Positions 13,398 through 50,060 of a stretch of 64,000 nt of DNA are shown one piece after another. The notes below the pieces were generated by a model. The model ran no database searches. It saw nothing but the letters and a program-made list of their open reading frames with translations, and had not been told where the DNA came from. Position numbers and translations under genes: made by a program. Position 1 is the first letter of the stretch. Every line of letters starts with the position of its first letter. The DNA is from Prevotella sp. (GTDB lineage Bacteria; Bacteroidota; Bacteroidia; Bacteroidales; Bacteroidaceae), in the NCBI GenBank assembly GCA_017554145.1, contig JAFZIZ010000013.1, forward strand, positions 79,685 to 143,684, read 5' to 3'.

Positions 13398-13587
13398 AAG
13401 TAATATTTTAGTGAAACACATATTTAGATGATACGAAATAATTCCTTGAAATGCTGTCCGAAATTAGTTGTTTTTTTCGGCACAAACAAGAAAAAGCACC
13501 AATAATTAATCTTTTTGTCCCAAAACCGATGTTTTTTAAGACATATTAATAATTATAGAACTTTCCCCACATCATATTCCATTTTGC

Positions 13588-14031
13588 TTACCAGTCGTAG
13601 TCATCGACATAATTGTCAAAGGTCACCTCTCCCGTCCACCCATTTTCTCGGAACAGGTCGCGGATATCCTCCTGCAAGGCAGGTGGAATAAGACGCGAAC
13701 CATTACGATACTCAAAATAGTATGTGCGATTGGTTAGTCCAATCACACCATGACGGACAGCGGGTTCCACACGTCTAGGCATATCACTCGTAAAGATGTT
13801 CATCATACCCTTGGCAAAGCGTACCTTCTGGTCGTTGCGAAACATCGGGCAATTGATAGTCGCTACACCTTCGAAATGTGGATTGACACACATATAGGAA
13901 CTATAGGTATGTGGTACATACTGCCCTGCAAGCCATCGCAGACACTGGGAGCGCAACGGGCACTCATCGACATAACATACAGTGTAGCCATTCTTGGCTT
14001 TCTCCATCAATAATTCTTTCTTGACGCTCAT
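13588..14031 (-). CDS. Small conserved Bacteroidales protein with clustered cysteines
   Basis: A 147-residue soluble protein. I think it belongs to a Bacteroidales-only uncharacterised family (possibly DUF6078), but this is from memory and unsure. It has a cysteine pattern near the N-terminus (C-x5-C-x5-C in VCYVDECPLRSQC, then YMCVNP and INCPMF), which suggests metal binding or a structural cluster. The C-terminal part (NGSRLIPPALQEDIRDLF...) could be a small DNA-binding or protein-binding helix region. It is transcribed away from a repeat-rich intergenic region, with a promoter at 14135-14166 and a short hairpin at the start of its leader. Function unknown. Confidence 0.65.
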   Translation of the reverse strand: MSVKKELLMEKAKNGYTVCYVDECPLRSQCLRWLAGQYVPHTYSSYMCVNPHFEGVATINCPMFRNDQKVRFAKGMMNIFTSDMPRRVEPAVRHGVIGLTNRTYYFEYRNGSRLIPPALQEDIRDLFRENGWTGEVTFDNYVDDYDW

Positions 14032-14115
14032 AATTTCTATGTTTATAAAATTGTTTTTTGTTGGTTCTTCATGGTGTGTTTCCAGTGTTTTCCATGAATC
14101 CAGTTTCCATTCTCA

Positions 14116-14134
14116 CAGTGTTCATTGAACACTG
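14116..14134 (-). promoter_or_regulatory. Inverted repeat at the transcript start of the 13588 gene
   Basis: Perfect 8-bp arms CAGTGTTC and GAACACTG around ATT. It lies immediately downstream of the -7 element on the minus strand, so it covers the expected start site. It could be an operator or a 5' RNA hairpin. Confidence 0.45.
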
Positions 14135-14166
14135 CAAAGGTACAAAATTTAACATGCGGTTTGCAA
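14135..14166 (-). promoter_or_regulatory. Promoter for the 13588 gene
   Basis: On the minus strand TTG-N21-TACCTTTG; good -7 match, spacing one to two bases longer than usual. The leader would be about 95 nt. Confidence 0.5.
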
Positions 14167-14169
14167 GTC

Positions 14170-14521
14170 TTTTCAATTAAAATATGTAAAAATATCACCA
14201 AGTGAGGGACTGTCCTCAAAAATGTGAGGGACTTTTCGAGTCAACGTGAAATAAAATTAAGTTTAACCCAAGTCAACCCTTATCGCAAGTAGGACTCCTA
14301 GTAGTCAACTAAAATCGTTAAACTACAGGCTATCGTATAGTTCGATTACTTCAAACGATGAGTCCGTAGGCTTCGGACTCTCAGTCCGTAACTAACGGAC
14401 TGGCAGTCCGACGGGACGTACTAAAAGATACTATTCAAGTATTCCACATAAATACTAATGCCAATATTTAGCCTTTATAATAAAAAAGGGCAAAGGCTCG
14501 CAAGTTTCCAGTATTATTTAG
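14170..14521. other. Non-coding stretch with direct repeats and paired dyads
   Basis: No gene is visible here. GTGAGGGACT occurs at 14202-14211 and 14224-14233, 22 bp apart. AGTCAAC occurs at 14239, 14271 and 14303, exactly 32 bp apart each time. At 14360-14380 there is a hairpin GAGTCCG-7-CGGACTC, followed at 14382-14402 by CAGTCCGT-5-ACGGACTG and a third AGTCCG half-site at 14405-14410. The stretch separates divergent small genes. It could hold operator sites, a palindromic repeat element or a terminator-like RNA; nothing in it decides between these. Confidence 0.5.
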
Positions 14522-14529
14522 TATATTTG
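14522..14529 (+). promoter_or_regulatory. -7 promoter element for the DUF4298 gene
   Basis: TATATTTG matches TAnnTTTG; the ATG at 14577 lies about 40 bp past the expected start site. Confidence 0.5.
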
Positions 14530-14576
14530 CATCGAAATGTTGGATGAGATTAGGAAAGAAAAAGAACTATATTTCC

Positions 14577-14867
14577 ATGAAACAGATAGAAAGAATCAAG
14601 ACGATGGAGCAACATCTGGATCGAGTTTCGCAGGCAGTGATGAAACTGTCGTCAGCACTCGATGAGTATACTGAGGCGCAGGAGGCACTTCGTGAATTGG
14701 AGTCTTATTATAGTAGTGATGAATGGAAACAGGACTTTGCTGATGACGAGGCAGGGCTGTTACCAAAGGACTTGAAGCGTGGTGTCCTCAGCGAAGATGC
14801 TATCTGGAATGTGTTGGAAGATAGCCGTAATATCAATACACGTATGGAAGAAGTGCTAAACATTTAG
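14577..14867 (+). CDS. DUF4298 domain protein
   Basis: A 96-residue, acidic, mostly helical cytoplasmic protein with the layout of DUF4298: 'QIERIKTMEQHLDRV' at the start, a coiled-coil-like helix to about residue 45, then 'YYSSDEWKQDFADDEAGLLP' and 'GVLSEDAIWNVLED'. The family is small and uncharacterised. I chose the ATG at 14577 because family members begin with this helix; an ATG at 14544 in frame would add eleven basic residues. The gene is followed by the promoter of the structured RNA, so it is probably a separate unit. Confidence 0.75.
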   Translation: MKQIERIKTMEQHLDRVSQAVMKLSSALDEYTEAQEALRELESYYSSDEWKQDFADDEAGLLPKDLKRGVLSEDAIWNVLEDSRNINTRMEEVLNI

Positions 14868-14933
14868 TTTTTTCAATGAAATCCACTTTCGGTGTGAATT
14901 CAACATTTATCCGAATAAAAAAATATTGAATTC

Positions 14934-14965
14934 CTTGCGACTTTCAAATTAATTCTTTATTTTTG
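14934..14965 (+). promoter_or_regulatory. Promoter driving the structured RNA
   Basis: CTTG-N20-TATTTTTG, a good Bacteroidales -33/-7 match. The start is expected at about 14972, at the base of the first hairpin, with no start codon for a long gene until about 300 nt later. Confidence 0.65.
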
Positions 14966-14971
14966 CACTTG

Positions 14972-15200
14972 AACACTGGCGCGAAGCCTCAGTGGAGGTG
15001 CCAGTGTAACTTTCGTGGAATATTAACATAGCGTTAGTGCTATATTCGGTGATGTCCCTGAACCTAGGAAATTCATAAGACACTCACAGAACGAATAAGT
15101 ACCAGCGTCTACGCGATAGCGTGGACGGGACTTATCTCTGTGATGGGTTTTCCTAGGACCTTGGGGCATCGATAAGCGCCTTTCCGCGCTTCTTTGTGTC
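14972..15200 (+). ncRNA. Candidate structured RNA, either free ncRNA or leader of the downstream operon
   Basis: About 230 nt with no sizeable reading frame but nested complementarity. Hairpin 1: ACACTGGC 14973-14980 with 15000-15007, plus an inner GCCTC/GAGG pair. Hairpin 2: GAATA 15018-15022 with 15043-15047 and TAGC/GCTA inside. A long rod follows: GATGTCCC 15051-15058 with GGGGCATC 15163-15170; CCTAGGAAA 15063-15071 with 15149-15157; TCACAGA 15084-15090 with 15137-15143; ATAAGT 15095-15100 with 15130-15135; and a 9-bp apical stem 15106-15114 with 15119-15127. Hairpin 3: AAGCGC 15174-15179 with 15186-15191. GAACCTAGGA (15060-15069) can instead pair with 15199-15209, so the fold may switch. 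It does not look like RNase P, tmRNA or SRP RNA. The rod shape recalls 6S RNA, but I cannot confirm that. Confidence 0.65.
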
Positions 15201-15275
15201 CTAAGGTTCTATGTTTTGAACCCATTATCATCCGAACAGATAGTCCTTTCGCCTAAAACAATTAATGATAAACTT

Positions 15276-17090
15276 ATGGCAGAAGAGTTACAGAAGGCGT
15301 TAGACTTATGTAATAAGAATGAGTTTGACAAGGCTCTACCTCTACTTGAAGAGATAGTAAAAACTAATCCTCAGGAATCTGAGGCTTGGCGTGTATTGGC
15401 TCAAATTCACTGGAACTATATGCATGAACCAGACAAGGCATATGATGAATTGATAGAGGCTCTTCGGTGTGAGCCAAAAAACATATGGGCTCTTGTGTTA
15501 ATGGGGAATCTGTTAACAAAAGAGATGAATGATCCCGAGCATGCCAAGGAGTATTATGATAAAGTTTTGGAATATCATCCAGACAATGCTATAGCCCTAA
15601 ACAATATTGGTGCAACATATATGGAGCGCAAAGACTATGAGGGGGCATTACCTTATTTGGAGAAAGCAATGTCAATTGATGATTCATATGCCAATTCTTA
15701 TTATGGTTTAGGTCTTTGCTATTATAAACTCGGTAGGTTGGAAGATGCTTTTGAGATTTGTCATAAAGGATCTTTAAGGTCATCAGACCGCCCAGAAAAT
15801 CCTGCTGTACGTGAAGAATTGGTTAAACTTTACGTCACTGTGGCAAAAGACTATGCAGATAAAACCAATTATATTAATGTATGGAAAGGCATCAAGGATG
15901 AACTCGAAGCAGTTGACCATATCAACATTCGTTTTGCCGAAGATAAAGATATCAATGTATTAGCCAAGTTGGAGTATGCTCCTCTACATGCAGCAAAGGA
16001 ACATGTAATAAGGTATAACCCCTATAAAGACTTTGTAGAGCACCTGTTTATTCATGAAATGATGCACTTGAAGATGAGTCAACAAGCAACAAAAGCAAAT
16101 AGGGGAAAGGCTGTTGTCAGTTCGGAGAATACAAGGAATGCATTTAAAAGGCGTTATCAGAGATTCATGCAGAACACACATAGCCATATTCCCGCCTCTG
16201 AAATGAACAAGGTAATATCTGGACTTGCTGATGGATTAGGTCTTCAGTTGATGAACTGCCCACTTGATTTGTTTGTTGAGCATAGTATCTATACAGACTA
16301 CAAGATTGTACGACCTATCCAACTGCTGTCTCTTTTCCATATGGAACAGGATAATATCAACGCCGTTAAGCAAACTGCCGCTAATGGGTTCTTTCCTAAA
16401 GAGATAGTTTATGCCAATAAGGTTATGAATATCGTTACAAGCATGCACTTTAAGGACATGTATGGTATTAATCTTATAGGTCAATATCGTCCAACGAAAC
16501 AAGAATTAGATCATGCAAAAGATCTCTATGAAGAGTTCAAGGCATATCTGAATACATACAAAGCAGGAGATGAATATGAGATGCTTGAATATTTCGTGCA
16601 GTCTTTCAAGATGGATGAGCTTGTAGAGATTGTAGACGAGAATCAGGTAACAGCAAGTATGAAAGCAAATCTCTCAATGAAAAGTGATTTGAAAGATTTG
16701 GCAGAAGGTGCCTTGTCTGAAGAAGATGCAGATGTTGCAAACGCTCAATTTGCCTTGAATCACCAAGACGGAGCAGACCCAACAGAGACGATGATGATGT
16801 CAATGTATATGTTGGGAGCAATGGAATACTTTGACACCCTTGATTCCAGTGATGTACATCGCATTGCTTTAGAAATAGCAATGGTAGGTGTAAAAGGAAT
16901 CAACCCGAAAGGGAAATATTCGATAAAGTCAATTCCAGATAAGGAGTTTGGCGGATATGAGTTTTTAGCCTATTATTATGTTAGTTGGGCTCGTGCTATC
17001 CCCGAGAAACTCAATCATCTTGGTTTACCTTTCTCAAAGGCATATGATTCAGCATTGCAGATGTATAATACAAAGAAAGGAAAGAAATGA
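15276..17090 (+). CDS. TPR protein with an HExxH metallopeptidase-like domain
   Basis: A 604-residue cytoplasmic protein. Residues 1-170 form about four to five tetratricopeptide repeats (for example ALNNIGATYMERKDYEGALP, SYYGLGLCYYKLGRLEDAFE), a protein-interaction scaffold. Residues 257-264 read LFIHEMMH, a zinc-peptidase HExxH motif (H260, E261, H264) set in a helix after KDFVE; a downstream acidic residue such as the Glu in FVEHSIY may be the third ligand. The rest is helical and unrecognised. The stop overlaps the next start by 4 bp (ATGA), so the gene heads a three-gene operon. I prefer ATG 15276 to a TTG at 15216 because the TPR begins there. It is AT-richer than the flanking core genes. 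Likely role: sensor or effector protease of the operon (inference). Confidence 0.72.
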   Translation: MAEELQKALDLCNKNEFDKALPLLEEIVKTNPQESEAWRVLAQIHWNYMHEPDKAYDELIEALRCEPKNIWALVLMGNLLTKEMNDPEHAKEYYDKVLEYHPDNAIALNNIGATYMERKDYEGALPYLEKAMSIDDSYANSYYGLGLCYYKLGRLEDAFEICHKGSLRSSDRPENPAVREELVKLYVTVAKDYADKTNYINVWKGIKDELEAVDHINIRFAEDKDINVLAKLEYAPLHAAKEHVIRYNPYKDFVEHLFIHEMMHLKMSQQATKANRGKAVVSSENTRNAFKRRYQRFMQNTHSHIPASEMNKVISGLADGLGLQLMNCPLDLFVEHSIYTDYKIVRPIQLLSLFHMEQDNINAVKQTAANGFFPKEIVYANKVMNIVTSMHFKDMYGINLIGQYRPTKQELDHAKDLYEEFKAYLNTYKAGDEYEMLEYFVQSFKMDELVEIVDENQVTASMKANLSMKSDLKDLAEGALSEEDADVANAQFALNHQDGADPTETMMMSMYMLGAMEYFDTLDSSDVHRIALEIAMVGVKGINPKGKYSIKSIPDKEFGGYEFLAYYYVSWARAIPEKLNHLGLPFSKAYDSALQMYNTKKGKK

Positions 17091-17416
17091 GCGACTTAGA
17101 AGAACTTCGTCAGGCTATCGTTAAGTTCACACAAGAACGAGATTGGGATCAATTTCATAATGGAAAGGATTTAGCTCTTGCACTATCTATTGAAGCAGCA
17201 GAACTGAATGAGGCTTTCTTATGGAAAGAAGCAAAAGACGTAAATGTGGAAAAAGTTAAGGAAGAGCTTGCTGATATCATTAATTACTCCATTTTGATAG
17301 CAGACAAGTATAACCTTGATATCAAGCAAATAGTCCTCGATAAAATAAGGAGAAATGCCGAAAAGTATCCTGTAGATAAAGCCTACGGGAGCGCAAAGAA
17401 ATATAATGAGTTATGA
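17087..17416 (+). CDS. MazG-like nucleotide pyrophosphohydrolase
   Basis: A 109-residue all-alpha NTP pyrophosphatase of the small single-domain MazG/dCTPase type. The Mg-binding motif is clear: E36xxE39 in SIEAAELNEAF, then E60xxD63 in KEELADIINY. The substrate would be a (deoxy)nucleoside triphosphate hydrolysed to NMP and pyrophosphate. N-terminal 'FTQERDWDQFHNGKDLALAL' is typical of this subgroup. Both ends overlap neighbours by 4 bp (ATGA), so it is translated with the TPR-protease and the nuclease-helicase. In that setting a role in nucleotide depletion or in damage or phage response is plausible but unproven. Confidence 0.9.
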   Translation: MSDLEELRQAIVKFTQERDWDQFHNGKDLALALSIEAAELNEAFLWKEAKDVNVEKVKEELADIINYSILIADKYNLDIKQIVLDKIRRNAEKYPVDKAYGSAKKYNEL

Positions 17417-19890
17417 ATAACAGACGAGTCGTTTATAACGAAACCCAACAACAATTTTTCCAAGATGTAGATTCGAAGAACTTTCTTGGAAAGATGGTGA
17501 GTAAGGCTCAAGAGTTAGAACTTCGGGTATCCTCTCAAGAGCAAGTCTCATGGGCGAATAATGCACCAAAAATAAAAGAATTACTTGAGGTTAGTGGTAT
17601 TAACGACTCATACGTAACTTTTGAATATCTTGTTCCTTATCGTAGAAGCCGAATTGATTGCATGATTTATGGAAGCGACAATCAAGACTATGGTAATGTT
17701 GTACATATTGAGCTGAAGCAATGGAGCAATCAAACCGTTAAGTCCGATGAGATAGATGCAAATTTCCAAGTGAAAAACGAAAACGATGAAGACGATGCAG
17801 ATTATAATATTGTAGCACTAACTGGCGGCTCTTACAAATTAGAATCACACCCTTCTCAACAAGTTCGTGGTTACGACAACTACCTGACAGGCTTTATTGA
17901 GGTGTTAAGTACCAAACAAATAGGTCTCAAAGGCATAGCTTATTGCTACAATTATTCACGTTATCCTAAGAAGAAAGGAACTCCAACCGTATTATATGAT
18001 GCTAAGTATGATGCCCTACAACGTGAATACAGAACATATTCGAAAGATGAACTAAATGAAATTGCCGCAGAGATCAGAGAAAAGCTTTGTCACGGAAACG
18101 GATTCAACATTTTCAATAAAATGATGAACTCGAAAATCAGAAGTTCAAAAAAACTCCTTGAAGCCGCTTCAAAGATGATAGAGGAAGGCAACTACGACTA
18201 TTTTTCACTCATTGAGGAACAAATAACTGCGAAGAATGCCATTATGGATGCAATCCGTAAAATGGAGAAACACGATAAGAGCGTGATTATAGTAAAAGGT
18301 GGCCCAGGCACAGGTAAGACTGTAATTGCACTTAGTATCTTGGCAGAATTAGCTGGAAATAAGAGAAAACAATATAATCTTCATTATGCCACAAAGTCAA
18401 AACCTCTGCTTGAAGGTGTTCGTCACCAGTTAAAACCAGTTGCAAGGCCTTTGTTTTCAAATGTACTACAATTCATTCCTGCCAACTTTAATTCTAATGA
18501 TTTAGATGTGCTTTTAGTTGACGAGGCGCACCGAATTACATTGAGTCCGAATCATCAATATACAAAACCAGAGAAAAGAACGGATATGACGATGGTTGAC
18601 ACTCTTATCAACTGCGCAAAGGTTGTAGTCTTTTTCATTGATGATAAGCAGGCTATTCGTTCCCAAGAAATTGGATCGACGGAAATGATTCGAAATGCAG
18701 CTAATAGATTTTCAGCAAACATCTATGAAACAGAGTTATATTCTCAATTCCGTTGTAATGGTTCTGATAATTATCTAGATTGGCTGGATCAGATTATGTA
18801 TAATCAAAAAATTACTTCCCACTTCAAGAGTAATGAATTTGACTTTAAGATTTTCGATGATCCACAAAAGCTTTACGATGCTATCAAGGAGCAAGACAAT
18901 AAAGAAGGGCAATCAGCCCGTATATGTGCTGGTTTCTGTTGGCCCTGGTCAGACAAGACCGATGAAAATGGCGATTTGAGAAAGGAAGTAGAGATAGGTT
19001 CCTTTGCTATGCCTTGGGAAACAAAAGAGTCTATAAAGCCAAGACCTAAGGGATATGTTCAGTGGTATGAATGGGCTTATAAACCTGAAGGTATTAAACA
19101 GGTGGGGTGTATATATACTGCCCAAGGATTTGAATTCGACTATATTGGTGTCATTGTTGGCAATGATTTAAGATACGACAAATCTTCTGGTAATTTATAT
19201 ACCGATATTACTGCAACGAAGGATCCCATGCTTAAGAGGTCAAAAGAGGGTTTTGACGATTATGTACGTAACATCTATCGTGTTTTAATGTCAAGAGGTA
19301 TGAAGGGATGTTATGTCTATTTCTGTGACCCAGAAGTTGCTACATATTTCCAACAGATGATGTTGCCTGCTCCAAAAGAGGAAGAAAAAGTGCAAATGGC
19401 AGAGATTGTTCCAATGGTATCTCAAAGCGAGCAATACACAACATATTTGCCAGTATTCTCTATGAAAGCAGCTTGTGGATACTTTGGTGAAGGTGAATTG
19501 GTAGAAGAAGACGGCTGGATGAAAGTAGATGGAATGGGAAAATTGAATCGCAATATGTTTGTTGTTCAAGCATCAGGGCGTTCTATGGAACCGCGCATTC
19601 ATGATGGAGATTATTGTGTATTTCGCGCTATTCCTGCAGGAAGCAGACAAGGCAAGATTGTATTAGTTCAACATCGAAATTTTTATGATGATGATTCTGG
19701 TGGCGCCTACTCTATCAAGAAATACTCTAGCTCTTGGAGTGGCAATGAATCGGATGGCTACCAGCATGAAAAAATCGAGTTGATTCCTCTAAATAATGAC
19801 TATAAAACTATTGTCATTAACAGAGAAGATATAGAAGATGATGAAGAACCATTTATCGTAATTGGCGAGTTTGTTGGAGTAATCAATTGA
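17413..19890 (+). CDS. Nuclease-helicase-S24 fusion: PD-(D/E)xK, DUF2075 helicase and LexA-like peptidase
   Basis: An 825-residue multidomain protein. Residues 60-180 carry a PD-(D/E)xK-type nuclease signature: RSRID (D82) then HIELKQW (E100, K102). Residues 285-650 form an SF1-like DUF2075 helicase: Walker A GGPGTGKT at 296-303, Walker B LLVDEAHR (D370, E371), FFIDDKQ (408-413), SQFRC (444-448) and late motifs including YTAQGFEFDY. Residues 680-825 are an S24/LexA-like domain with the nucleophile in ASGRSMEPRI (Ser724) and candidate Lys769 in YSIKKY. So it could cut nucleic acid, translocate on it, and either self-cleave or sense damage. Its start overlaps the MazG gene by 4 bp; a strong terminator follows. 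DUF2075-S24 fusions exist in other genomes; the operon's purpose is not known to me. Confidence 0.85.
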   Translation: MNNRRVVYNETQQQFFQDVDSKNFLGKMVSKAQELELRVSSQEQVSWANNAPKIKELLEVSGINDSYVTFEYLVPYRRSRIDCMIYGSDNQDYGNVVHIELKQWSNQTVKSDEIDANFQVKNENDEDDADYNIVALTGGSYKLESHPSQQVRGYDNYLTGFIEVLSTKQIGLKGIAYCYNYSRYPKKKGTPTVLYDAKYDALQREYRTYSKDELNEIAAEIREKLCHGNGFNIFNKMMNSKIRSSKKLLEAASKMIEEGNYDYFSLIEEQITAKNAIMDAIRKMEKHDKSVIIVKGGPGTGKTVIALSILAELAGNKRKQYNLHYATKSKPLLEGVRHQLKPVARPLFSNVLQFIPANFNSNDLDVLLVDEAHRITLSPNHQYTKPEKRTDMTMVDTLINCAKVVVFFIDDKQAIRSQEIGSTEMIRNAANRFSANIYETELYSQFRCNGSDNYLDWLDQIMYNQKITSHFKSNEFDFKIFDDPQKLYDAIKEQDNKEGQSARICAGFCWPWSDKTDENGDLRKEVEIGSFAMPWETKESIKPRPKGYVQWYEWAYKPEGIKQVGCIYTAQGFEFDYIGVIVGNDLRYDKSSGNLYTDITATKDPMLKRSKEGFDDYVRNIYRVLMSRGMKGCYVYFCDPEVATYFQQMMLPAPKEEEKVQMAEIVPMVSQSEQYTTYLPVFSMKAACGYFGEGELVEEDGWMKVDGMGKLNRNMFVVQASGRSMEPRIHDGDYCVFRAIPAGSRQGKIVLVQHRNFYDDDSGGAYSIKKYSSSWSGNESDGYQHEKIELIPLNNDYKTIVINREDIEDDEEPFIVIGEFVGVIN

Positions 19891-19910
19891 AATCTCAAAT
19901 AACAATATAT

Positions 19911-19945
19911 AAGAATCAAGTGACATGTACTTGATTCTTTTGTAT
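19911..19945 (+). terminator. Terminator of the three-gene operon
   Basis: Perfect 11-bp arms AAGAATCAAGT and ACTTGATTCTT with a 7-nt loop, followed by a T-rich tail. Confidence 0.85.
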
Positions 19946-19969
19946 TTTACTTTCTTATGTGTATCTTTA
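19939..19969 (+). promoter_or_regulatory. Promoter for a candidate small RNA
   Basis: TTTG-N19-TATCTTTA: perfect -33 and spacing, one mismatch (A for G) in the -7 element. It starts inside the T-tail of the preceding terminator. Confidence 0.45.
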
Positions 19970-19975
19970 CAAATA

Positions 19976-20097
19976 GAAATATGGTTGGAAGATGTCGGAT
20001 GTATGAGGTCTGATGGCTGATGTAAAATAAAATTATAATCCCAAAGAAATGATATTAGGATGTGCCATAGCGATGAGAATCGCTATGGCATTTTTTT
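19976..20097 (+). ncRNA. Candidate small RNA of about 120 nt
   Basis: It is bounded by the promoter at 19939-19969 and a strong terminator at 20064-20097, with no reading frame longer than about ten codons. Its first 30 bases, containing GAAGATGTCGGATG, resemble the leader upstream of the fic gene at 20624-20646 and a segment at 21915-21928, so it may be a decayed copy of the same promoter-leader module rather than a functional RNA. Confidence 0.4.
20064..20097 (+). terminator. Strong hairpin terminator
   Basis: Perfect 11-bp arms GCCATAGCGAT and ATCGCTATGGC around GAGA, followed by T7 or more. Confidence 0.85.
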
Positions 20098-20194
20098 CAA
20101 AAAGTACCATTTAATACATAATAGTATGTAACGAAATGTTACATATAGATACAGAAGATAATTAACTATCATACCAATATGTTATATAAAATAT

Positions 20195-20255
20195 GGCCAA
20201 ACAGGTGAACGAATCTTGGTCAAACGGGTGAATAAAATGTGTCCAAATGACGGAA
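20195..20255 (+). repeat. Three 15-bp direct repeats with 23-bp period upstream of rhuM
   Basis: GGCCAAACAGGTGAA (20195), GGTCAAACGGGTGAA (20218) and GTCCAAATGACGGAA (20241) are spaced exactly 23 bp, with the last ending about 17 bp before the -7 element at 20272. They look like repeated operator or iteron sites. The rest of 20098-20270 shows nothing else. Confidence 0.5.
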
Positions 20256-20271
20256 CTTAAATTATTCTTTG

Positions 20272-20279
20272 TATCTTTG
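20272..20279 (+). promoter_or_regulatory. -7 promoter element for the rhuM fragment
   Basis: TATCTTTG followed by CAAAAGAAAGATG; matches TAnnTTTG. No clear -33 element. Confidence 0.5.
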
Positions 20280-20289
20280 CAAAAGAAAG

Positions 20290-20520
20290 ATGATAAAAAT
20301 GAAACAGGATCAAATTGTAATATATCAAGACGAAAACAACGCCATACAACTTGAGGTTAGAATGGATGGTGAAATGATATGGCTGACACGACAGCAGTTG
20401 GCAACGTTGTTTGGCAGAGACTATAAGACTATCAGTAAACATATCAATAATGCACTCAAGGAGGAATTGGCTGATGAAGTGGTAGTCGCAAAATTTGCGA
20501 ATACCACTTCATCATGGTGA
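20290..20520 (+). pseudogene. Truncated RhuM-family (COG3943) gene
   Basis: The 76 codons encode the N-terminus of the RhuM/virulence-protein family: 'IVIYQDENNAIQLEVRMDGE' then MIWLTRQQLATLFGRDYKTISKHI, a winged-helix-like DNA-binding segment, then DEVVVAKFANTT. Intact members of the family are usually around 330 residues. Here a TGA follows TTSSW, and no other frame continues the family sequence. The break falls on a near-perfect 41-bp palindrome (20473-20513). The start at 20290 follows a -7 element; the ATG at 20299 is an alternative. It may still make a short DNA-binding peptide, but it is most likely a remnant of a longer gene that was deleted before the Fic gene. Confidence 0.75.
20473..20513. 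repeat. 41-bp near-perfect palindrome at the rhuM break
   Basis: Outer arms of 12 bp (GATGAAGTGGTA and TACCACTTCATC), a 2-bp mismatch, then inner arms CGCAAA and TTTGCG. The inner part encodes VAKFA, which is part of the conserved family sequence, so some of the symmetry is built into the gene; the outer arms extend it. Confidence 0.7.
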
Positions 20521-20607
20521 AAGTGGTGGTGAATCTGATTAATCAGAAGAATTGATAAGATCTGATGATACTGGTATTCAAGTAATATGGGTATGAAATA
20601 TAATTTG

Positions 20608-20615
20608 TACCTTTG
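20608..20615 (+). promoter_or_regulatory. -7 promoter element upstream of the Fic gene
   Basis: TACCTTTG followed by CAAACGAAATATGG; matches TAnnTTTG and resembles the promoter-leader sequences at 19962 and 20272. Confidence 0.5.
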
Positions 20616-20632
20616 CAAACGAAATATGGCTG

Positions 20633-20700
20633 AAAGATGTCGGATGGCATTTATGGTTCATGGTGAAGGGTGAAAGGTTCATGATTGAAGAATAAAACGA
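20633..20700. repeat. Direct repeat, left copy, flanking the Fic gene
   Basis: 68 bp from AAAGATGTCGGATG to AATAAAACGA, nearly identical to 21915-21990 except for a missing 7 bp (TATGAAG) and a 1-bp change in an A run. Internally it is built of 7-bp units (GGTTCAT, GGTGAAG, GGTGAAA, GGTTCAT). Confidence 0.85.
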
Positions 20701-20723
20701 GATAAAGATATGAATAACGAGAT

Positions 20724-21890
20724 ATGAGTGAGAACAAGGAACTGTATTTAGACTTTGACGAGTATATCCGTCAGGGGGAGCCAGAACAACGGGTAAAGGC
20801 AGGCTACTGGCAGACGGCTATAGGACTTCAGGCAGTGGACGGGCTGAAGACTTCGAAGTATCTGCAACAGACGGCTCGCAGGAACATCGAGGGTGAGATA
20901 ACCATCGACGAAGCACGCGAGTTAGTGAACCAGTACTACGTCACTAAGACGGCTCATGATGCCAACGATGAGGACAAGGAAGAGGCTGACCGCGTGTCAT
21001 CGAACATCGTGAAAGTTCTGTCCAGTCCTACTTTTGACTTCAGTACGGGTGGCTACCAGTCGGTGCATCGCCGTGTTTTTGAAGGCGTGATGAAGCATGC
21101 TGGAGAGTTGCGGAAATATGACATTACCAAAAAGGAATGGGTGCTGGAAGGCGACACGGTGCTTTACCTGAACTGGGAGGATCTGCGCAGGGCTATGGAC
21201 TATGACCTGAAGCTGGAACGCGCTTACAGTTACAAAGGGAAAACTCAGGACGAGATGATTAGCCATCTGGCACATTTTGTGTCAAAGCTGTGGCAGATTC
21301 ACGCTTTCGGTGAGGGTAATACTCGTACTACAGCCGTTTTTACCATACAATATCTGCGCTCGCTTGGGTTTAACGTAAACAATGAGCAGTTTGCACGTCA
21401 CTCATGGTATTTCCGTAATGCGCTGGTCAGGGCCAACTACCGCAATGTGGCAAAGGGAATTGAATATACTCCTATCTATTTGGAGCGTTTCTTCCGCAAT
21501 CTGCTATTGGGAGAGCAGTGGGATTTGCGTAATCGCTACCTGCATATCCACCCCACAGAAGCGTGGAGCGTTCAACCCAATTTGGCATCACCAGAAAGCA
21601 CCCGACAAGCTGGTAGCAAGTTACCCGACAAGCTACCCGACAAGTTCAATACCAAGAGTCAATATATCAAGAACTTAGTGAAACTTGTCGGTAACAAGGA
21701 AATGTCTATAAAAGAAATGCTTGCAGGCTTAGATCTGAAGGACAGAGAGAGTTTTATGAACGTCTATCTCAACCCTGCAATAAAAGAGAAGTTCATCTGT
21801 TTGCTGTATCCAAAATCACCCCGTCATCCACGTCAGAAGTACCTGTTGACGGTGAAAGGATTGGCACTTTATAACGAATTGACAAAGTAA
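20724..21890 (+). CDS. Fic-domain protein, probable AMPylating or related nucleotidyl transferase
   Basis: A 388-residue Fic protein. The Fic motif is HAFGEGNTRTT at residues 193-203 (catalytic His193, Asn199, Arg201); the final Arg of the HxFx(D/E)GNGRxxR consensus is replaced by Thr, a variant seen in a known subgroup. N-terminal residues 48-75, ARRNIEGEITIDEARELVNQYY, resemble the VbhA-type antitoxin helix fused in cis, which normally inhibits the enzyme; this is an inference. The C-terminal region from about 300 (LPDKLPDKFNTK... to the end) looks like a winged-helix domain. It would modify a target hydroxyl with AMP or a related group. It lies between two 68-76 bp direct repeats and after a rhuM remnant. 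Confidence 0.85.
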   Translation: MSENKELYLDFDEYIRQGEPEQRVKAGYWQTAIGLQAVDGLKTSKYLQQTARRNIEGEITIDEARELVNQYYVTKTAHDANDEDKEEADRVSSNIVKVLSSPTFDFSTGGYQSVHRRVFEGVMKHAGELRKYDITKKEWVLEGDTVLYLNWEDLRRAMDYDLKLERAYSYKGKTQDEMISHLAHFVSKLWQIHAFGEGNTRTTAVFTIQYLRSLGFNVNNEQFARHSWYFRNALVRANYRNVAKGIEYTPIYLERFFRNLLLGEQWDLRNRYLHIHPTEAWSVQPNLASPESTRQAGSKLPDKLPDKFNTKSQYIKNLVKLVGNKEMSIKEMLAGLDLKDRESFMNVYLNPAIKEKFICLLYPKSPRHPRQKYLLTVKGLALYNELTK

Positions 21891-21914
21891 TATTTTCGAG
21901 TTTTCCATACTATA

Positions 21915-21990
21915 AAAGATGTCGGATGTATGAAGGCATTTATGGTTCATGGTGAAGGGTGAAAGGTTCATGATTGAAGAAATAAAACGA
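21915..21990. repeat. Direct repeat, right copy, flanking the Fic gene
   Basis: 76 bp matching 20633-20700, starting 24 bp after the Fic stop codon. The pair makes the gene a candidate for deletion or acquisition by recombination between repeats. Confidence 0.85.
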
Positions 21991-22031
21991 CCCGCCGATT
22001 TAAGCATTGTAAAGAGGCTTGGCGGGTTCTC
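21985..22031 (-). terminator. Probable terminator of the minus-strand operon
   Basis: On the minus strand AACCCGCCAAGC pairs with GCTT...GGCGGGT, followed by CGTTTTATTT. It fits the end of the nhaD-serine hydrolase transcript. A TACTTTTG -7-like element at about 22038-22045 on the same strand could alternatively make a very short RNA. Confidence 0.5.
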
Positions 22032-22125
22032 GTGATGCAAAAGTACGAATATTTTTGAATATATAATGATTTTGCTTAGAAATCTTTTGTATTTCAGATT
22101 TTATTAACTTTTATACACTGCATTA

Positions 22126-23184
22126 TTACAATGCGGGAAGGATGTGTTTCCAGACGAGGTTAAGTTCACCTTGCAGGTCCTCAACGTTGGAGGTGATAGC
22201 GATGACGGTGTTTTTGTCGGGAACGACGATGATGTATTGACCTCTGGCACCATCAGCACGGAAACAGCCAGGACGACAGCGCCACATCTGATAGCCGTAG
22301 CCTTGCATCCAGTCGCTGGTCTCCTTGGTCATACCTTTTGCTGTGGCATCCTCCATACGAGTGCCTGGGTTGATGCTCTCTACTTGCTTCTTCGACATCT
22401 CGGCAACCCAATCGGCAGGAATCAGTTGCTTGCCGTTCCACTCTCCTTTCTGCAAAAGCAGTTGACCCATCTTCGCCAGATCTTCTGTCTTGAGATAAAG
22501 TCCCCAACCACCACAGTTGATACCTTGTGGACTCTCATCCCATTGAGGCTTGTCAATATGCAGGGGTTCAAAGAGGCGGGTATTCAGATAGTCAACTACC
22601 TTTTCGCCCGTTACCTTTTGGACGATGGCAGAGAGCATATAGGTGCCAAGGCTGTTATAAAGGTAGAACGTGCCAGGCTCATGCTTGACGGGTTGAGCAA
22701 GAAAGACGGTTGCCCAGTCTTGATCAGGTGCGCCACGGAAGGATGGCTCTTCATCGTGTCCGCACGACATCGTCAGCAGGTCACGAACAGTCATTGCCTT
22801 CAGATTATCGCTTACCTCAGCAGGCAGTTTGTCAGGGAAGTAGTCGATGACTTTGTCTGTCAATTTCATCTTACCATCAGCAATGGCAAGTCCTACAGCT
22901 GTAGCTGTGAAGGTCTTGCTGACGGAGTGAAGCACATGGGGTATGGTGTCTACTCCCTCACTCTGCCATTTGCTATAGATGACATTGCCGTCCTTGACAA
23001 TCATCACACTATGGATGTCCATCGAGTCGTTAGCCGCTTCTTGGAAGAAAGTATCCATAGCGGATGCTACGCTATCAGGAGTTTCTGCACGTGGCAGGTC
23101 AATGACTTCCGCTGTTTGCGGATTGTTCTTACATGCCGTCAATGCTATCAGCATCAAAGCAGCGAAAAGGGTCTTTTTCCTCAT
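22126..23184 (-). CDS. Lipoprotein serine hydrolase, class C beta-lactamase/penicillin-binding fold
   Basis: A 352-residue protein with a lipoprotein signal (MRKKTLFAALMLIALTAC; lipobox Cys18), so it is anchored in a membrane. The active-site SxxK motif is HSVSK (Ser87, Lys90), the second motif is LYNS near residues 175-178, and the third segment, GARGQYIIVVPDKNTV near the C-terminus, stands in for HxG/KTG. The fold is shared by class C beta-lactamases, D-aminopeptidases and esterases, so the reaction is not certain. It lies 38 bp downstream of nhaD on the same strand, in a spacer made of repeated ACTAACAT-like units, and is probably co-transcribed. Confidence 0.85.
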   Translation of the reverse strand: MRKKTLFAALMLIALTACKNNPQTAEVIDLPRAETPDSVASAMDTFFQEAANDSMDIHSVMIVKDGNVIYSKWQSEGVDTIPHVLHSVSKTFTATAVGLAIADGKMKLTDKVIDYFPDKLPAEVSDNLKAMTVRDLLTMSCGHDEEPSFRGAPDQDWATVFLAQPVKHEPGTFYLYNSLGTYMLSAIVQKVTGEKVVDYLNTRLFEPLHIDKPQWDESPQGINCGGWGLYLKTEDLAKMGQLLLQKGEWNGKQLIPADWVAEMSKKQVESINPGTRMEDATAKGMTKETSDWMQGYGYQMWRCRPGCFRADGARGQYIIVVPDKNTVIAITSNVEDLQGELNLVWKHILPAL

Positions 23185-37897: not shown

Positions 37898-39386
37898 CGT
37901 CAAACCTTCTGTCGTTATTGTCAAATTTGCGATTGCCCTTAAAGGGTTTCTTGTCTCCTCTGCGCTCGAAGCGGTCACGTCCACCTCTACCCTTGAAATC
38001 TCTGGGCTTATCGAAGCGCTTACCATTTCTTGGGGGTCTGGAATCTTCGTTGTCCCTTGGCGGTCTTGGTTTCTGGGGAGCCTTGGGTTCTAAAGAACGG
38101 AACTTAAAGTTTCGAATGTCAGCCTCTTCGTTCTCTTCCTGCTGCTCCAAGCGTTTCTTGAATTCACGATTCTGTTTGAAACGATGTTTCTCCGCCATCT
38201 TCTGCTTCTCTTCCTCTGTCTTCACAACACCACCCTCGGAGCGGAACTCTTTCATCTTTCCGTCAAAGAGTTGGTATTTACGGAACTCACACTCCAAAGA
38301 ACCGTTGAAGAGAGGTATCTTGATAGAAGGCTTCAAACCAATCTGGTCGAAACATTCCTCCCGATAACTGAGAATCCATGCGTCGTTATTGGTAAACTGA
38401 TGCTTCAGTCGCTCACCAATCATCTTATAGGTACCCAGCAGGTCAGGAGTTGAGATTCGTTCACCATAAGGCGGATTCGTCACAATGATACTCTTCTCCT
38501 TCGGCTGTGTGAAGTCCTTGAAATCGGCTTCCGCTATCGTAATATCACTGGTCAGTCCTGCCGCCTTGACATTAAGACGAGCAGTATTCACTGCCTTGAT
38601 ATCGATGTCATAGCCGTAGATATGATGCTTGAACTCGCGTTCCTGAGAGTCGTCATTGTAGATCTCGTCAAACAAATCGCGATCGAAGTCCTTCCATTTC
38701 TCAAAGGCAAACTCTTTACGGAAAAGTCCTGGCGCCATATTACGGGCAATCAGGGCCGCCTCTATCAATAAAGTACCACTTCCGCACATCGGGTCGATAA
38801 AGTCTGTATCTCCTTTCCAATCCGTCATAAGAATCATACCTGCTGCCAAAACCTCATTCAGAGGAGCCTCAACAGATTCCTGACGATAACCACGACGATG
38901 CAGTGACTCTCCGCTGGAATCCAACGAGAGCGTACACTGATCTTCAGCAATATGGATGTTCAAACGGATATCAGGATTAGCCACAGAGATATTCGGACGA
39001 TTACCTGTCTTCTCACGGAACTGGTCGACAATGGCATCCTTCACTTTATATGCCACAAACTTAGAGTGGCGGAACTCCTCAGAGAAGACGACCGAGTCGA
39101 CAGCGAAGGTCGTATTATTGTCTAAAAACTCCGTCCAGTCAACAGCCTTCACGCCCTCATAGACATCATCAGCCGACAATGCTTTGAAATGCTTGATAGG
39201 TTTCAAAATACGGATGGCAGTATGCAACTGGAAGTTAGCACGATACATCATTTCCTTATCACCTGTGAAGGAAACCATGCGGCGTCCTATCTGTACATTC
39301 TTTGCGCCCAGTTGCGTTAATTCTTTCGCCAAAACAGGCTCAAGCCCCATAAAGGTCTTGGCGATGAGTTCAAATTCTTGTGTCAT
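37884..39386 (-). CDS. THUMP-domain class I RNA methyltransferase (RlmL/YpsC-like)
   Basis: A 500-residue protein that should methylate 23S rRNA guanines. The start MTQEFELIAKTFMGLEPVLAKEL at 39386 is typical; the frame is open for about 90 codons upstream across the promoter, which is not coding. A THUMP domain occupies residues 50-160, followed by the methyltransferase core with IDPMCGSGTLLIEAAL (SAM binding) and the catalytic TNPPYGER. The C-terminal 80 residues are unusually basic and Arg/Gly/Asp-rich (RPPRDNED, FKGRGGRDRFERRGDKK), likely RNA-binding and disordered. Promoter at 39410-39440. Confidence 0.92.
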   Translation of the reverse strand: MTQEFELIAKTFMGLEPVLAKELTQLGAKNVQIGRRMVSFTGDKEMMYRANFQLHTAIRILKPIKHFKALSADDVYEGVKAVDWTEFLDNNTTFAVDSVVFSEEFRHSKFVAYKVKDAIVDQFREKTGNRPNISVANPDIRLNIHIAEDQCTLSLDSSGESLHRRGYRQESVEAPLNEVLAAGMILMTDWKGDTDFIDPMCGSGTLLIEAALIARNMAPGLFRKEFAFEKWKDFDRDLFDEIYNDDSQEREFKHHIYGYDIDIKAVNTARLNVKAAGLTSDITIAEADFKDFTQPKEKSIIVTNPPYGERISTPDLLGTYKMIGERLKHQFTNNDAWILSYREECFDQIGLKPSIKIPLFNGSLECEFRKYQLFDGKMKEFRSEGGVVKTEEEKQKMAEKHRFKQNREFKKRLEQQEENEEADIRNFKFRSLEPKAPQKPRPPRDNEDSRPPRNGKRFDKPRDFKGRGGRDRFERRGDKKPFKGNRKFDNNDRRFDDDED

Positions 39387-39409
39387 GATGTATTTCAATA
39401 AATATGCTG

Positions 39410-39440
39410 CAAAGATACGAAGAAGTAAGGGAAATTCAAA
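39410..39440 (-). promoter_or_regulatory. Promoter for the THUMP methyltransferase gene
   Basis: On the minus strand TTTG-N19-TATCTTTG, exact consensus, 24 bp before the ATG. Confidence 0.75.
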
Positions 39441-39479
39441 ATAAATCACATTTTTTTTCATTATTCTAAAACTTTTATG

Positions 39480-39487
39480 TAATTTTG
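39480..39487 (+). promoter_or_regulatory. -7 promoter element for the histidine kinase gene
   Basis: TAATTTTG on the + strand, 28 bp before the ATG at 39516. No exact -33 TTTG. Confidence 0.5.
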
Positions 39488-39515
39488 CACCAACTGTAAA
39501 TTTAAACCAAACACT

Positions 39516-40775
39516 ATGGTGAATATAGCATATCTGCTCCTGTTGAATATGGGTTCGCTGATGCGACTGGATATTCTGGTGTGGCTGATAGGTATTCCTA
39601 TTGTCTTTGCGTTTATAGTTTATCTCATCTTCCAGGTAAGAGAACACCGTCAATTGAAATCAGAATTGGTTCAATTGGCAAAGATCAAGAAACATGACAT
39701 AGAACACGAACTGGTGCTGAAAGCCATGTGTCTGTCGACTTGGAGGTATGACGTGTCTACGGCTACATTTACGATGGAAAACGACTACCGAAAAGAAACG
39801 GACAGCCTTCCTTTTGATAAAAGCACCTCAATGGATGTTCTATACAAGAACATGAAGCCTCAGTATTTGCAGGAATTTAAAGGTCTTTTGGCAGATATAA
39901 TGGAGGGACGTAAAGATGAGGTACATATACAATACGAGATGGTGTCCCCGAGTAGTGAGAAGGTCTATTGGTCCGAAATCTTTGCTACTGTGGATAAACG
40001 TAACTTGGATGGAAAACCGTTAACGATAATTGGGACAACCCGTCGTATTGACGAACAAAAGCATCTGGAAGAAGAATTGATAGAAGCCCGAAACCATGCT
40101 GAGGAAAGCGACCGTCTGAAGTCTGCTTTTCTGGCCAATATCACGCATGAGGTTCGCACTCCATTGAATGCCATCGTTGGTTTTAGCGATGTTCTACCAA
40201 TGGCTCAGAGTGAAGAAGAACGAAACGAACTGGTCAAACTCATCAAGCAGAACAATGCTCACCTCTTACGTTTATTTGACGACATGATGACGATCTCTAA
40301 ACTGGAGGCAGGAGGCAATAGTCATGTGGAGAATACCGACTTTGAGATACTTCCTTTATTACGGGAATTAGTCGATAAGTATATGACGATATGCATGGAA
40401 AAAGGTCTTGATTTGTTCTTAGAGGAGTCTGCCAAGAATGATGTCGTACATACAGACCATGATCGATTGAAAGAGATTTTGAATCAATATCTGAATAATG
40501 CAGTGAAATTTACTACAGAAGGAAGTATCAGTATTGGATACGACAAACTTCCTAACAGTATACGCTTATGGGTAAGTGACACAGGAAAGGGTATTCCGGA
40601 GGATATGTGTAACGATCATCTGTTTGAACGCTTTGTCAAGGTGGATGAGTTTATCCCTGGCACAGGCTTAGGATTGAGCATCTGTCGCAGCCTTGCCCTA
40701 AGTATCAACGGTAAAGTCGGAGTGGAATCCGTTTTAGGAAAAGGTTCCACATTCTGGGTTGAATTACCGACATAA
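39516..40775 (+). CDS. Sensor histidine kinase with PAS domain
   Basis: A 419-residue membrane-tethered kinase. One membrane helix (about residues 19-40) is followed by a PAS-like domain (about 70-180), HisKA with phospho-acceptor His211 in NITHEVRTPLN, and an HATPase domain with the N-box LNQYLNNAVKFT, G1 SDTGKGIP and G2 GTGLGLSI. All catalytic motifs are intact. It has no receiver or DNA-binding domain, so it must signal to a regulator encoded elsewhere. The DUF5686 gene begins directly after its stop, so the two are co-transcribed. Confidence 0.92.
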   Translation: MVNIAYLLLLNMGSLMRLDILVWLIGIPIVFAFIVYLIFQVREHRQLKSELVQLAKIKKHDIEHELVLKAMCLSTWRYDVSTATFTMENDYRKETDSLPFDKSTSMDVLYKNMKPQYLQEFKGLLADIMEGRKDEVHIQYEMVSPSSEKVYWSEIFATVDKRNLDGKPLTIIGTTRRIDEQKHLEEELIEARNHAEESDRLKSAFLANITHEVRTPLNAIVGFSDVLPMAQSEEERNELVKLIKQNNAHLLRLFDDMMTISKLEAGGNSHVENTDFEILPLLRELVDKYMTICMEKGLDLFLEESAKNDVVHTDHDRLKEILNQYLNNAVKFTTEGSISIGYDKLPNSIRLWVSDTGKGIPEDMCNDHLFERFVKVDEFIPGTGLGLSICRSLALSINGKVGVESVLGKGSTFWVELPT

Positions 40776-43406: not shown

Positions 43407-43476
43407 TTTTTTCAGTTCCTTGCAACTTTTTCATATTTCATTTCGTCTATAAGATAAAAACTAATTAAAATTGGAA

Positions 43477-44232
43477 ATGAATATGAAAAAGTTGATTATT
43501 TGTCTTGTAGCAATTTTTGCTATTGTATTTGGGGTACAAGTTTATGCTGCCGAGTTGAATAACCTAGCAGAAGAACAACGACCCACAAAGAGTTTTGAGC
43601 GTATTCGTTTGCAAGGATCACCTGATATCAAATATACTCAGGGGAAGACCTGCTCTGTCCGCGTGAAAGCTCCCAAAAACATGATCAAAAACATAGAAAC
43701 ACGAGTAGAAGGCAACTGCCTTATTGTCAGCATGAAGAATAACAGGTTCTTCTCCTTTGGCTCAATTAAAAGCGGTGAAGTTACAGTGTATGTGACATCT
43801 CCTGACTTGATTGGTGTAGAAGTACAGGGTTCTGGCGACTTTGAATGTAAGAGTCTCTTAGATACTGACAATATGGAGATAAGCCTGCGTGGTTCTGGAG
43901 ATGTCAATTTCACTGATATTATTTGTGACCACATCAAAACCTCATTGGTAGGATCTGGCGATATTGAAATCAAGAATGTTACAGCCCAGCAGTCGTCAGT
44001 GGAGTTAGTAGGCTCTGGCGATGTAAAGGTTAAGCAAAACAAGGTAAAACAGACACAATTGGAACTGAAAGGTTCTGGTGATATTAAAATAGCATGTAAC
44101 AACTGTGATGTTGTCAATTGTCGCCTTGTAGGAAGCGGAGATATCACCCTCTCTGGAACAGTCAAAAAACTCAATCGTTCCACAAGAGGCTCTGGTGATA
44201 TAGAAACCGGTGGACTTCGAATCATCAAGTAG
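43477..44232 (+). CDS. Secreted DUF2807 (head GIN domain) protein with GSGD repeats
   Basis: A 251-residue exported protein with signal peptide MKKLIICLVAIFAIVFGVQVYA. The rest is a right-handed beta-helix-like DUF2807 domain. It shows seven regularly spaced repeats of the form xxGSGDxxxx (VQGSGDFECK, LRGSGDVNFT, LVGSGDIEIK, LVGSGDVKVK, LKGSGDIKIA, LVGSGDITLS, TRGSGDIETG), about 20 residues apart. Family members are thought to be surface or periplasmic adhesin-like proteins, but no function is firmly known. The frame also opens at a TTG (43471). A strong terminator follows, separating it from the sensor-glycosidase operon. Confidence 0.88.
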   Translation: MNMKKLIICLVAIFAIVFGVQVYAAELNNLAEEQRPTKSFERIRLQGSPDIKYTQGKTCSVRVKAPKNMIKNIETRVEGNCLIVSMKNNRFFSFGSIKSGEVTVYVTSPDLIGVEVQGSGDFECKSLLDTDNMEISLRGSGDVNFTDIICDHIKTSLVGSGDIEIKNVTAQQSSVELVGSGDVKVKQNKVKQTQLELKGSGDIKIACNNCDVVNCRLVGSGDITLSGTVKKLNRSTRGSGDIETGGLRIIK

Positions 44233-44256
44233 TAAAACCTTTTTTTCTTGTAATTA

Positions 44257-44290
44257 ATGCTTGTTTCAGAAAAAACAAGCATTTTTTTTT
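44257..44290 (+). terminator. Terminator after the DUF2807 gene
   Basis: ATGCTTGTT and AACAAGCAT arms followed by T9. Its T run overlaps the -33 element of the next promoter. Confidence 0.85.
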
Positions 44291-44318
44291 GTTATGTTGT
44301 AAAAAAAGTGTATTTTTG
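44288..44318 (+). promoter_or_regulatory. Promoter of the sensor-glycosidase operon
   Basis: TTTG-N19-TATTTTTG, exact consensus spacing, 27 bp before the ATG at 44346. It could drive all six genes to 59600. Confidence 0.75.
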
Positions 44319-44345
44319 CAACTAACTATAATATAATACTTACCG

Positions 44346-46937: not shown

Positions 46938-46950
46938 AAAGAAACAATAT

Positions 46951-50034: not shown

Positions 50035-50060
50035 TGAATATAACTATAACAGAAAAACTG

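Follow-up and report, generated by a model that had tools for sequence, protein, structure and literature searches.

Riboswitches, attenuators and the put and EAR RNAs, of which the last two are processive antitermination RNAs, are the closest described counterparts of a structured leader RNA found upstream of a three-gene operon of Prevotella sp. (contig JAFZIZ010000013.1, positions 79,685 to 143,684; these 64,000 nucleotides, numbered from their first letter, are referred to as the window). As in those systems, the leader has a promoter motif before it and a terminator-like element and a gene behind it; it differs in matching no Rfam family and in its clients, which are restriction-modification genes and genes of secreted proteins. 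The operon itself comprises g1 (15276-17090, with ATG at 15276 and the stop codon at 17088-17090), encoding a protein of 604 amino acids (aa) with TPR repeats and an HExxH domain; g2 (17087-17416), whose 109-aa product is, by sequence family, a MazG-like, DCTPP1-like nucleotide pyrophosphohydrolase; and g3 (17413-19890), encoding 825 aa with an N-terminal PD-(D/E)xK-like motif, a helicase of Schlafen (SLFN) group 3 and a C-terminal S24 domain. All three genes lie on the forward strand. Probably, the locus is a defence operon that Bacteroidales exchange horizontally and that a structured leader RNA regulates in cis. Neither the leader nor the apparent replacement of g3 from locus to locus formed part of the original prediction, which had dealt with the operon.

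Two members of the trio, the DCTPP1-like enzyme and the Schlafen-type helicase, have relatives among known mammalian proteins. The likeness of g3 to the Schlafen-type helicases lies in PF09848, which is taken here to be the former DUF2075, and a profile of the g3 alignment A8 finds SLFN5 (7.6e-5) and SLFN11 (0.0086). The architecture of g3 differs from theirs in the PD-(D/E)xK-like N-terminus and the C-terminal S24 domain, and no Schlafen core or AlbA-type RNase family is among its Pfam matches at an expectation value (E) of at most 0.1. The g2 protein, whose residues 4-109 align with dCTP pyrophosphatase 1 (6sqw, 8.5e-18), differs from that enzyme and from other MazG-like enzymes in having a helicase as a fixed neighbour in its operon. 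The S24 domain shares with the auto-peptidases of the LexA/UmuD type the Ser, the Lys and the Cys-Gly at LexA-like spacing, and differs from them in being fused behind a helicase. In the open-access literature (bioRxiv being outside the scope), no paper was found on the Schlafen group 3 helicase, on DUF2075 together with MazG, or on DUF2075 in phage defence. The bacterial Schlafen defence cited in PMC12839542 is, in the accessible part of that source, alike in name and in its link to defence and different from g3 in architecture.

Structure and distribution of the leader RNA

The whole conserved stretch of the leader covers positions 14967-15245 of the forward strand, on which all elements of the leader described below are located. 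Its fold energy corresponds to a z of -7.4, and none of 200 shuffled sequences folds as low. The core described by the covariance models R1 and R2 (15029-15173) carries five strongly covarying helices, P1-P5. R1 was built from an alignment of 20 copies and R2 from 60 copies that had not been used for R1. In the 20-copy alignment, 89.4% of the cells are paired and 20 of the 41 pairs show two-sided changes, compared with 33-44% pairing when the partners are slid; the 60 copies give 89.8%, 38 of 41 pairs and 34-45% for slid partners, and 18 class- and phylum-level copies matched by R2 give 89.0% and 32 of 41 pairs, values to be read with the knowledge that alignments fitted to a model lean towards the structure of that model. 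Helix P1 (15051-15058 with 15163-15170) has two-sided changes at 8/8 pairs in both alignments A3 and A4. Helix P2 (15063-15070 with 15150-15157) is paired in 98.3% of the cells of the 60 copies, with two-sided changes at all 8 pairs. The hairpin P5 (15106-15114 with 15119-15127) emerges from the covariation alignments, and G-U pairs are common in it. Two points weigh against this structure: the hairpin P0 is weakly kept (59.7% paired in the 60 copies), and two of the five measures of covariation gave a less clear result in the first, 20-copy alignment (5/500 and 128/500 shuffles). Overall, as an RNA structure the leader class has good support, and it constitutes a more general finding than the operon.

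No family of Rfam 15 matches the leader at E<=1 (window positions 13400-22300) or at the gathering threshold in 27 loci; the two gathering-level matches in those 27 loci, TPP and tmRNA, lie away from the leader. Matches of MIR4371 and PsrR1 in the window region are below gathering and were taken as chance. An earlier sighting of the leader may be HMP2_4205 (PMC8040213), a candidate microbiome RNA of 132 base pairs (bp), palindromic, from Bacteroidetes and located near TPR genes; its size, phylum and neighbourhood, compared by description only, are compatible with the leader. The accessible part of that paper names no restriction or defence link for its candidate RNAs.

A near-palindromic element in front of exchangeable accessory genes could also act as DNA, namely as a recombination site for cassettes, and the occurrence of leaders and operons in different combinations agrees with such a role. 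This explanation is nevertheless very improbable, given the promoter motif upstream of 52/59 copies, the T-run after the core, the same-strand gene following at a narrow distance and the frequent G-U pairs of P5, all of which speak against a DNA site.

At the genus level, a DNA match to the leader is present in 24/100 genomes, in some of them over the first ~50 bases only, and R1 matches 137/200 genomes. R1 also matches 55/198 genomes of the order, in 47 of 151 genera, and R2 matches 15/198 phylum-sampled genomes, the window's included. The upstream regions of the 14 loci that carry relatives of g1 (loci are designated by L numbers) hold several leader classes, as judged by eye. The leaders of L040, L041, L044, L045 and L050 were not detected by R2, and their kinship with the class of the window is suggested by a common P2 motif seen by eye. 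Weak matches were obtained with R1 in L049 (25.4 bits) and L043 (19.8 bits) and with R2 in L043 (25.6 bits) and L039 (19.9 bits). In the last two loci, a second, divergent leader copy stands before the next gene of the island (L043:14112-14256 and L039:14131-14271; 33.7 and 29.2 bits with R2).

Promoter, terminator-like element and alternative pairings

At the head of the leader lies TAnnTTTG (14958-14965), presumably a -7 promoter element of the Bacteroidota type. This motif occurs at most 150 nucleotides (nt) upstream of the core in 52/59 copies not used for R1, compared with 10/57, 3/56, 0/56 and 4/55 control windows. Inside the leader, a pattern scan, which returned 6 sites in the region against 3.5 expected, located a terminator-like hairpin (AAGCGC/GCGCTT, 15174-15191) that is followed by a T-rich run, the element as a whole spanning 15174-15197. 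A T-run within 50 nt after the core is present in 54/60 copies and in 75/180 control windows. The 3′ half of the leader can alternatively form a long hairpin (15142-15225), in which 15142-15149 pair with 15218-15225 and approximately 15157-15169 with 15196-15209; its formation excludes P1 and P2. The minimum free energy fold of the window RNA keeps P1 and P2 when the transcript ends at 15199 and adopts the long 3′ hairpin when it ends at 15223.

In the 60 copies, P1 and the competing 3′ pairings alike have better energies between strands of one sequence than in permuted combinations (0/2000 each), and the 3′ strand of P5 pairs better with the T-run element of its own sequence (0/2000 permutations). 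A further switch, in which the 5′ strand of P0 would pair with the T-run element, was considered and dropped, its own pairs being worse than the permuted ones. The terminator-like hairpin and the two competing pairings suggest a regulatory switch, and mutually exclusive pairings combined with a terminator-like element fit an attenuator that refolds. Several points detract from such a switch. The permutations ignore the relatedness of the sequences, and one of the two same-sense controls of the test is slightly biased (28/2000), the other being clean (2000/2000). Moreover, the alternative hairpin cannot alone be the antiterminator, because its 3′ partner lies beyond the T-run.

The attenuator would act in three steps. 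The leader RNA would start folded in the P1/P2 form, and many transcripts would stop early at the terminator-like hairpin and T-run behind it. A factor, a ligand or a change in RNA polymerase at infection may then let the polymerase pass. Once it has passed, the 3′ half would rearrange to the alternative long hairpin, and expression of the operon would follow.

The main rival of this attenuator is a processive antitermination RNA, which would act on its own RNA polymerase and allow read-through of long accessory operons with no ligand involved. The position of the leader close behind a promoter motif suits such an RNA. The T-run directly behind the core, the terminator-like hairpin of the window and the mutually exclusive pairings, which fit attenuation, speak against it. 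The genes behind the leader bear on both explanations.

Genes behind the leader

The clients were read from the 60 copies (L119-L178), which score 65-103 bits and were taken in rank order from 150 listed R1 matches; they are not a random sample, some derive from the genomes of model members, and the selection excludes the model members themselves, copies for which a locus already existed and most contig-end matches. Reading frames come from a mechanical call with ATG, GTG or TTG as start codons, and the one in L131 is probably spurious. A same-strand frame starts within 450 nt after the core in 57/60 copies, for 49 of the 57 at a distance of 40-140 nt, and the three copies without such a frame stand outside the 57. 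A DNA methyltransferase or a restriction-type helicase is the first or second downstream gene in 43/57, as judged from clusters formed by single linkage, tallies of Pfam matches and ten scans of single proteins, some assignments, for instance in L172 and L151, being made by tally and eye. Beyond the 43, a GmrSD protein is encoded by the second gene in L167 and a NERD protein in L151 (by tally and eye). Among the client proteins, the PADLOC models for methyltransferases, IIG enzymes and helicases of the DrmD/BrxH type have 6 to 9 members each. The first gene upstream of the leader served as a control, in which no Pfam family exceeds 2/57 among the families listed (25 of 64); the defence-type families among those listed are RhuM (2) and Abi_2, YhcG, DUF1016 and UvrD (1 each), and the commonest PADLOC models are the RhuM-type PDC-S05 models (2/57). 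The clients of the longer DNA matches are, by eye, helicases of the PLD/SNF2 type with methyltransferases, type I and type III-like systems, a methyltransferase with a partner of the DUF262 type and a few unclear cases.

The link with restriction weakens away from these copies, and the leader is not exclusive to defence. R1 was built mostly from leaders of the restriction type, which favours such matches at the top of the ranking. Among 20 weaker genus matches, restriction-modification operons account for 4 of the 18 with a downstream frame (L272, L278, L280 and L289), and most of the other clients are, by eye, secreted proteins or lipoproteins. Of the six copies that R2 finds in the genome of the window, one leads a restriction-modification operon, one the trio and four other genes; besides the trio, the clients are an operon with a C5-methylase, a C10 protease, a repeat protein, a protein without a Pfam family and one that was not scanned. 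At the order level, approximately 17 of 30 copies lead a protein with a signal peptide-like start and three a methyltransferase-type operon (L180, L181 and L201; both by eye), and the clients of class-level copies are mostly secreted or SusC-like proteins. The leader as a defence-only element was accordingly rejected, weaker and wider copies leading other genes. The mixed clients at the order and class levels and at weak scores point to a general element of Bacteroidota that includes a restriction-linked Prevotella group, and the copy of the window belongs to this group.

A processive antitermination RNA would account for such mixed clients more readily than a defence signal does. The clients include long operons and very long genes unrelated in function, among them restriction genes of about 1000 aa or more, SusC/D-like pairs (by eye) and secreted proteins of at least 1000 aa. 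Many client genes are short, which such an RNA does not predict, and with the T-run and the exclusive pairings considered as well, this explanation is rather unlikely.

Within the same class, the leader was also seen before SusC/D-like pairs in L235, L236, L238 and L240 (by eye), some of them with a divergent HTH-like gene, before acyltransferase-3 genes (L138, L159 and L168) and before DUF4419 proteins (L161 and L177). A second leader class, searched with the leader of L040, has a match in 24/100 genus genomes and stands before five trio loci. In the 12 loci read, it precedes the trio in two (L243 and L249), a helicase of the PLD/SNF2 type in L244 and methyltransferases of the N6_N4 (L248), D12 (L253, and by resemblance L251) and C5 (L247) types. 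The client of L242 was scanned with no family assigned, that of L245 is like it, that of L252 is glycosyltransferase-like by eye, and no client was obtained for L246 and L250.

A broader proposal is that the Prevotella subfamily of a phylum-wide RNA class forms a common switch for unrelated immune systems, with g1-g2 as a chassis for swapped effectors behind it. This is put forward tentatively, as a possibility that falls short of being the expected outcome. If it is true, a single signal carried by RNA could raise the expression of many restriction systems simultaneously. A leader common to type I, type IIG and type III-like systems, to methyltransferase/GmrSD-type pairs and to the trio would amount to a layer of control in Bacteroidota, and it bears on the question of how costly or self-harming restriction systems are timed, above all after horizontal transfer. 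The close relatives of the leader in Prevotella also offer a handle for genome mining, the genes behind them being good candidates for new defence systems.

Relatives of the operon and exchange of its parts

Genome contigs were scanned for g1 with two peptide patterns, so that a locus had to match one of the patterns to be returned. The records of the 14 loci obtained carry the labels Prevotella, Prevotellaceae, Bacteroidaceae, Bacteroidales and Paludibacteraceae. Directly behind g1, g2 is present in 14/14 loci, and identity to the window is 74-96% for g1 and 83-93% for g2. A g3-like gene follows g2 in 13/14, being split in L042 and L049 and cut by the contig end in L041, and L050 has g1 and g2 without g3. 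Conservation of g3 is far lower than that of g1 and g2 (26-54% identity, BLAST). An example of this discrepancy is L037 of Prevotella sp. tf2-5, where g1 is 96% and g2 91% identical to the window and g3 only 35%, and g3 has thus apparently been exchanged between loci. In L038, L039, L043 and L046, the g3 product has no S24 domain, and behind g3 lies a fourth gene, which in L038 encodes an SF1-type helicase (AAA_12, 5.9e-37) and in the other three is alike by eye. In the loci found, g1 and g2 form a near-constant pair, and the third protein varies and is replaceable.

Wider sampling loosens the trio further. Among 198 genomes at the order level, 10 loci besides the window's hold most of the helicase (a count that leaves out L264, a fragment with stops, and L265, an S24-only match). 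In these, g2 is adjacent in 10/10, and g1 was seen in 2/10 (L254 and L260), with none in the other 8 within the 1.5-kb flanks. At the class level, g1 was matched in 4/198 genomes: L266 (3-3531, reverse strand) has relatives of g1 and g2 and then a ResIII enzyme in the place of g3, L267 a split g1, g2 and a divergent helicase, and L268 the TPR part only. The viral contigs contain no relative of g1 and one relative of g2 at 50% identity. From L254 and L260, the constant adjacency of g2 and g3, and L266 and L267, it follows that MazG and the SLFN-type helicase form the broader core and that the g1-g2 pair can be joined to other effectors. The original prediction, which had regarded the three genes as one module, is thus upheld for the gene order within the 14 loci and fails for a fixed trio, as L266, L050 and 8/10 order-level loci demonstrate.

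The flanks differ between most of the 14 loci, the exceptions being a common upstream flank in L040 and L041 and a common downstream gene in L040 and L044, so that the expected conservation of gene order in variable settings was found; the homologues are not always apart, and they occupy no single core position. Behind the trio and the fourth gene, L038 contains a ZorA-like gene (within L038:14376-17567; Pfam MotA_ExbB, weak at 0.0027) and, by eye, a ZorB-like one, and its surroundings are probably a defence island. The neighbours of L258 include, by eye, C5-methylase-like and Vsr-like genes. The variable flanks, the defence-type neighbours and the kinship of the leader with restriction-modification leaders favour the predicted defence module, and the lack of a fixed trio counts against it. 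The operon remains a good candidate for a defence module, a role suggested by its context.

The same genes could instead form a general module for stress or DNA damage, combining sanitation of deoxynucleoside triphosphates (dNTPs) with an S24 switch of the SOS type, and be located in variable islands by chance. The resemblance of g2 to a house-cleaning dCTP pyrophosphatase would suit such a module, as would the likeness of the Cys-Gly and the Ser-Lys of S24 to LexA/UmuD and the leaders of the same class that precede non-defence genes. The distribution is sparse, with g1 at >=74% identity in 5/150 genus genomes, the window's included, the effector varies, with a ResIII enzyme in its place in L266, and the neighbours are of defence type; these observations make a stress module unlikely.

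Protein families and proposed functions

Of the motifs listed in the original prediction, HEMMH, D82/E100/K102 and GGPGTGK are conserved among the relatives aligned, as is the Ser of GRSMEP wherever S24 is present. In g1, for which Pfam recognizes TPR repeats, HEMMH occupies residues 260-264, and H260, E261, H264 and E335 are invariant in 12 proteins. No peptidase family was found for g1 in Pfam at E<=0.1, which weakens its prediction as a zinc protease, and its AlphaFold model is of middling quality (pLDDT 68.5). Approximately the last 95-110 residues of g1 recur at 30-37% identity in small Prevotella proteins (L020-L023), in whose frames no TPR or HExxH was seen by eye. The g2 protein belongs to PF12643, MazG-like (2.4e-16).

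The helicase of g3 matches PF09848 at 7.7e-89 over the whole domain (g3 residues 289-639, model 1-354 of 354), and its C-terminus matches PF00717 (S24) at 7.3e-9. Alignment A8 comprises 11 proteins and omits the g3 of L041, truncated at the end of its contig, the broken ones of L042 and L049, and L050, which lacks the gene. D82, E100 and K102 are invariant in it, as are the helicase motifs GGPGTGK (Walker A), DEAHR and QFRCNGSD. The putative PD-(D/E)xK nuclease is read from the conserved D82, E100 and K102, the AlphaFold model (pLDDT 53.4) being too poor to judge the fold. The 7 rows that bear S24 keep the Ser of GxSMEP (GRSMEP-like), the Lys of SIKxY and the Cys-Gly of AACGYF, a bond that presumably corresponds to the position at which LexA-like proteins are cut, the Ser-Lys likewise resembling that of LexA/UmuD. 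The domain is absent as a whole from 4/11 proteins; switching by S24 cleavage, proposed originally, is therefore not general. In its own genome, g3 is a single match.

PADLOC-DB 2.0.0 contains no system matching the whole gene set, as anticipated by the original prediction, which had known no named system of this kind. Taken singly, g3 has partial matches to PDC-S41 (4.8e-20, the best), AbiO (1e-14) and Nhi (1.6e-14), g1 matches only Csx1 (0.0026, residues 3-68), and g2 has no match.

As a defence operon, the trio may function as follows. The g3 protein would recognize foreign or damaged nucleic acid and unwind or cut it, with the S24 domain, where present, as a possible LexA-like check on it, in keeping with the conserved Cys-Gly and Ser-Lys. 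The g2 protein may hydrolyse dNTPs (dCTP-like) and thereby starve replication, and g1 could be a zinc protease with the TPR repeats as its scaffold and a partner protein as its substrate.

Genomic setting

The immediate surroundings agree with their first description. Both junctions, g1/g2 and g2/g3, are overlaps of 4 bases with the sequence ATGA. A pattern scan places an intrinsic-terminator-like stem-loop with a T-rich tail at 19911-19939 on the forward strand, 3′ of the operon. The GC content per kb is 0.37-0.40 at 15-20 kb and 0.46-0.54 and 0.45-0.48 at 9-14 and 21-25 kb, respectively, so that the operon is AT-richer than its neighbours. The rhuM remnant, a truncated frame of 75 aa retaining the N-terminal part (20293-20517, forward strand), and the Fic gene (20724-21890) follow downstream in this order. 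RhuM-like frames are also located near the trio in L037, L048, L049 and L050. Behind the Fic gene, the same island contains an abiF RNA (RF03085, 58.4 bits, gathering 37) at 21990-22026, which is named after a phage-defence gene and differs from the leader in its family and in lying on the opposite, reverse strand. The window includes a second AT-rich stretch at 39001-51000 (GC 0.39-0.43), possibly another island.

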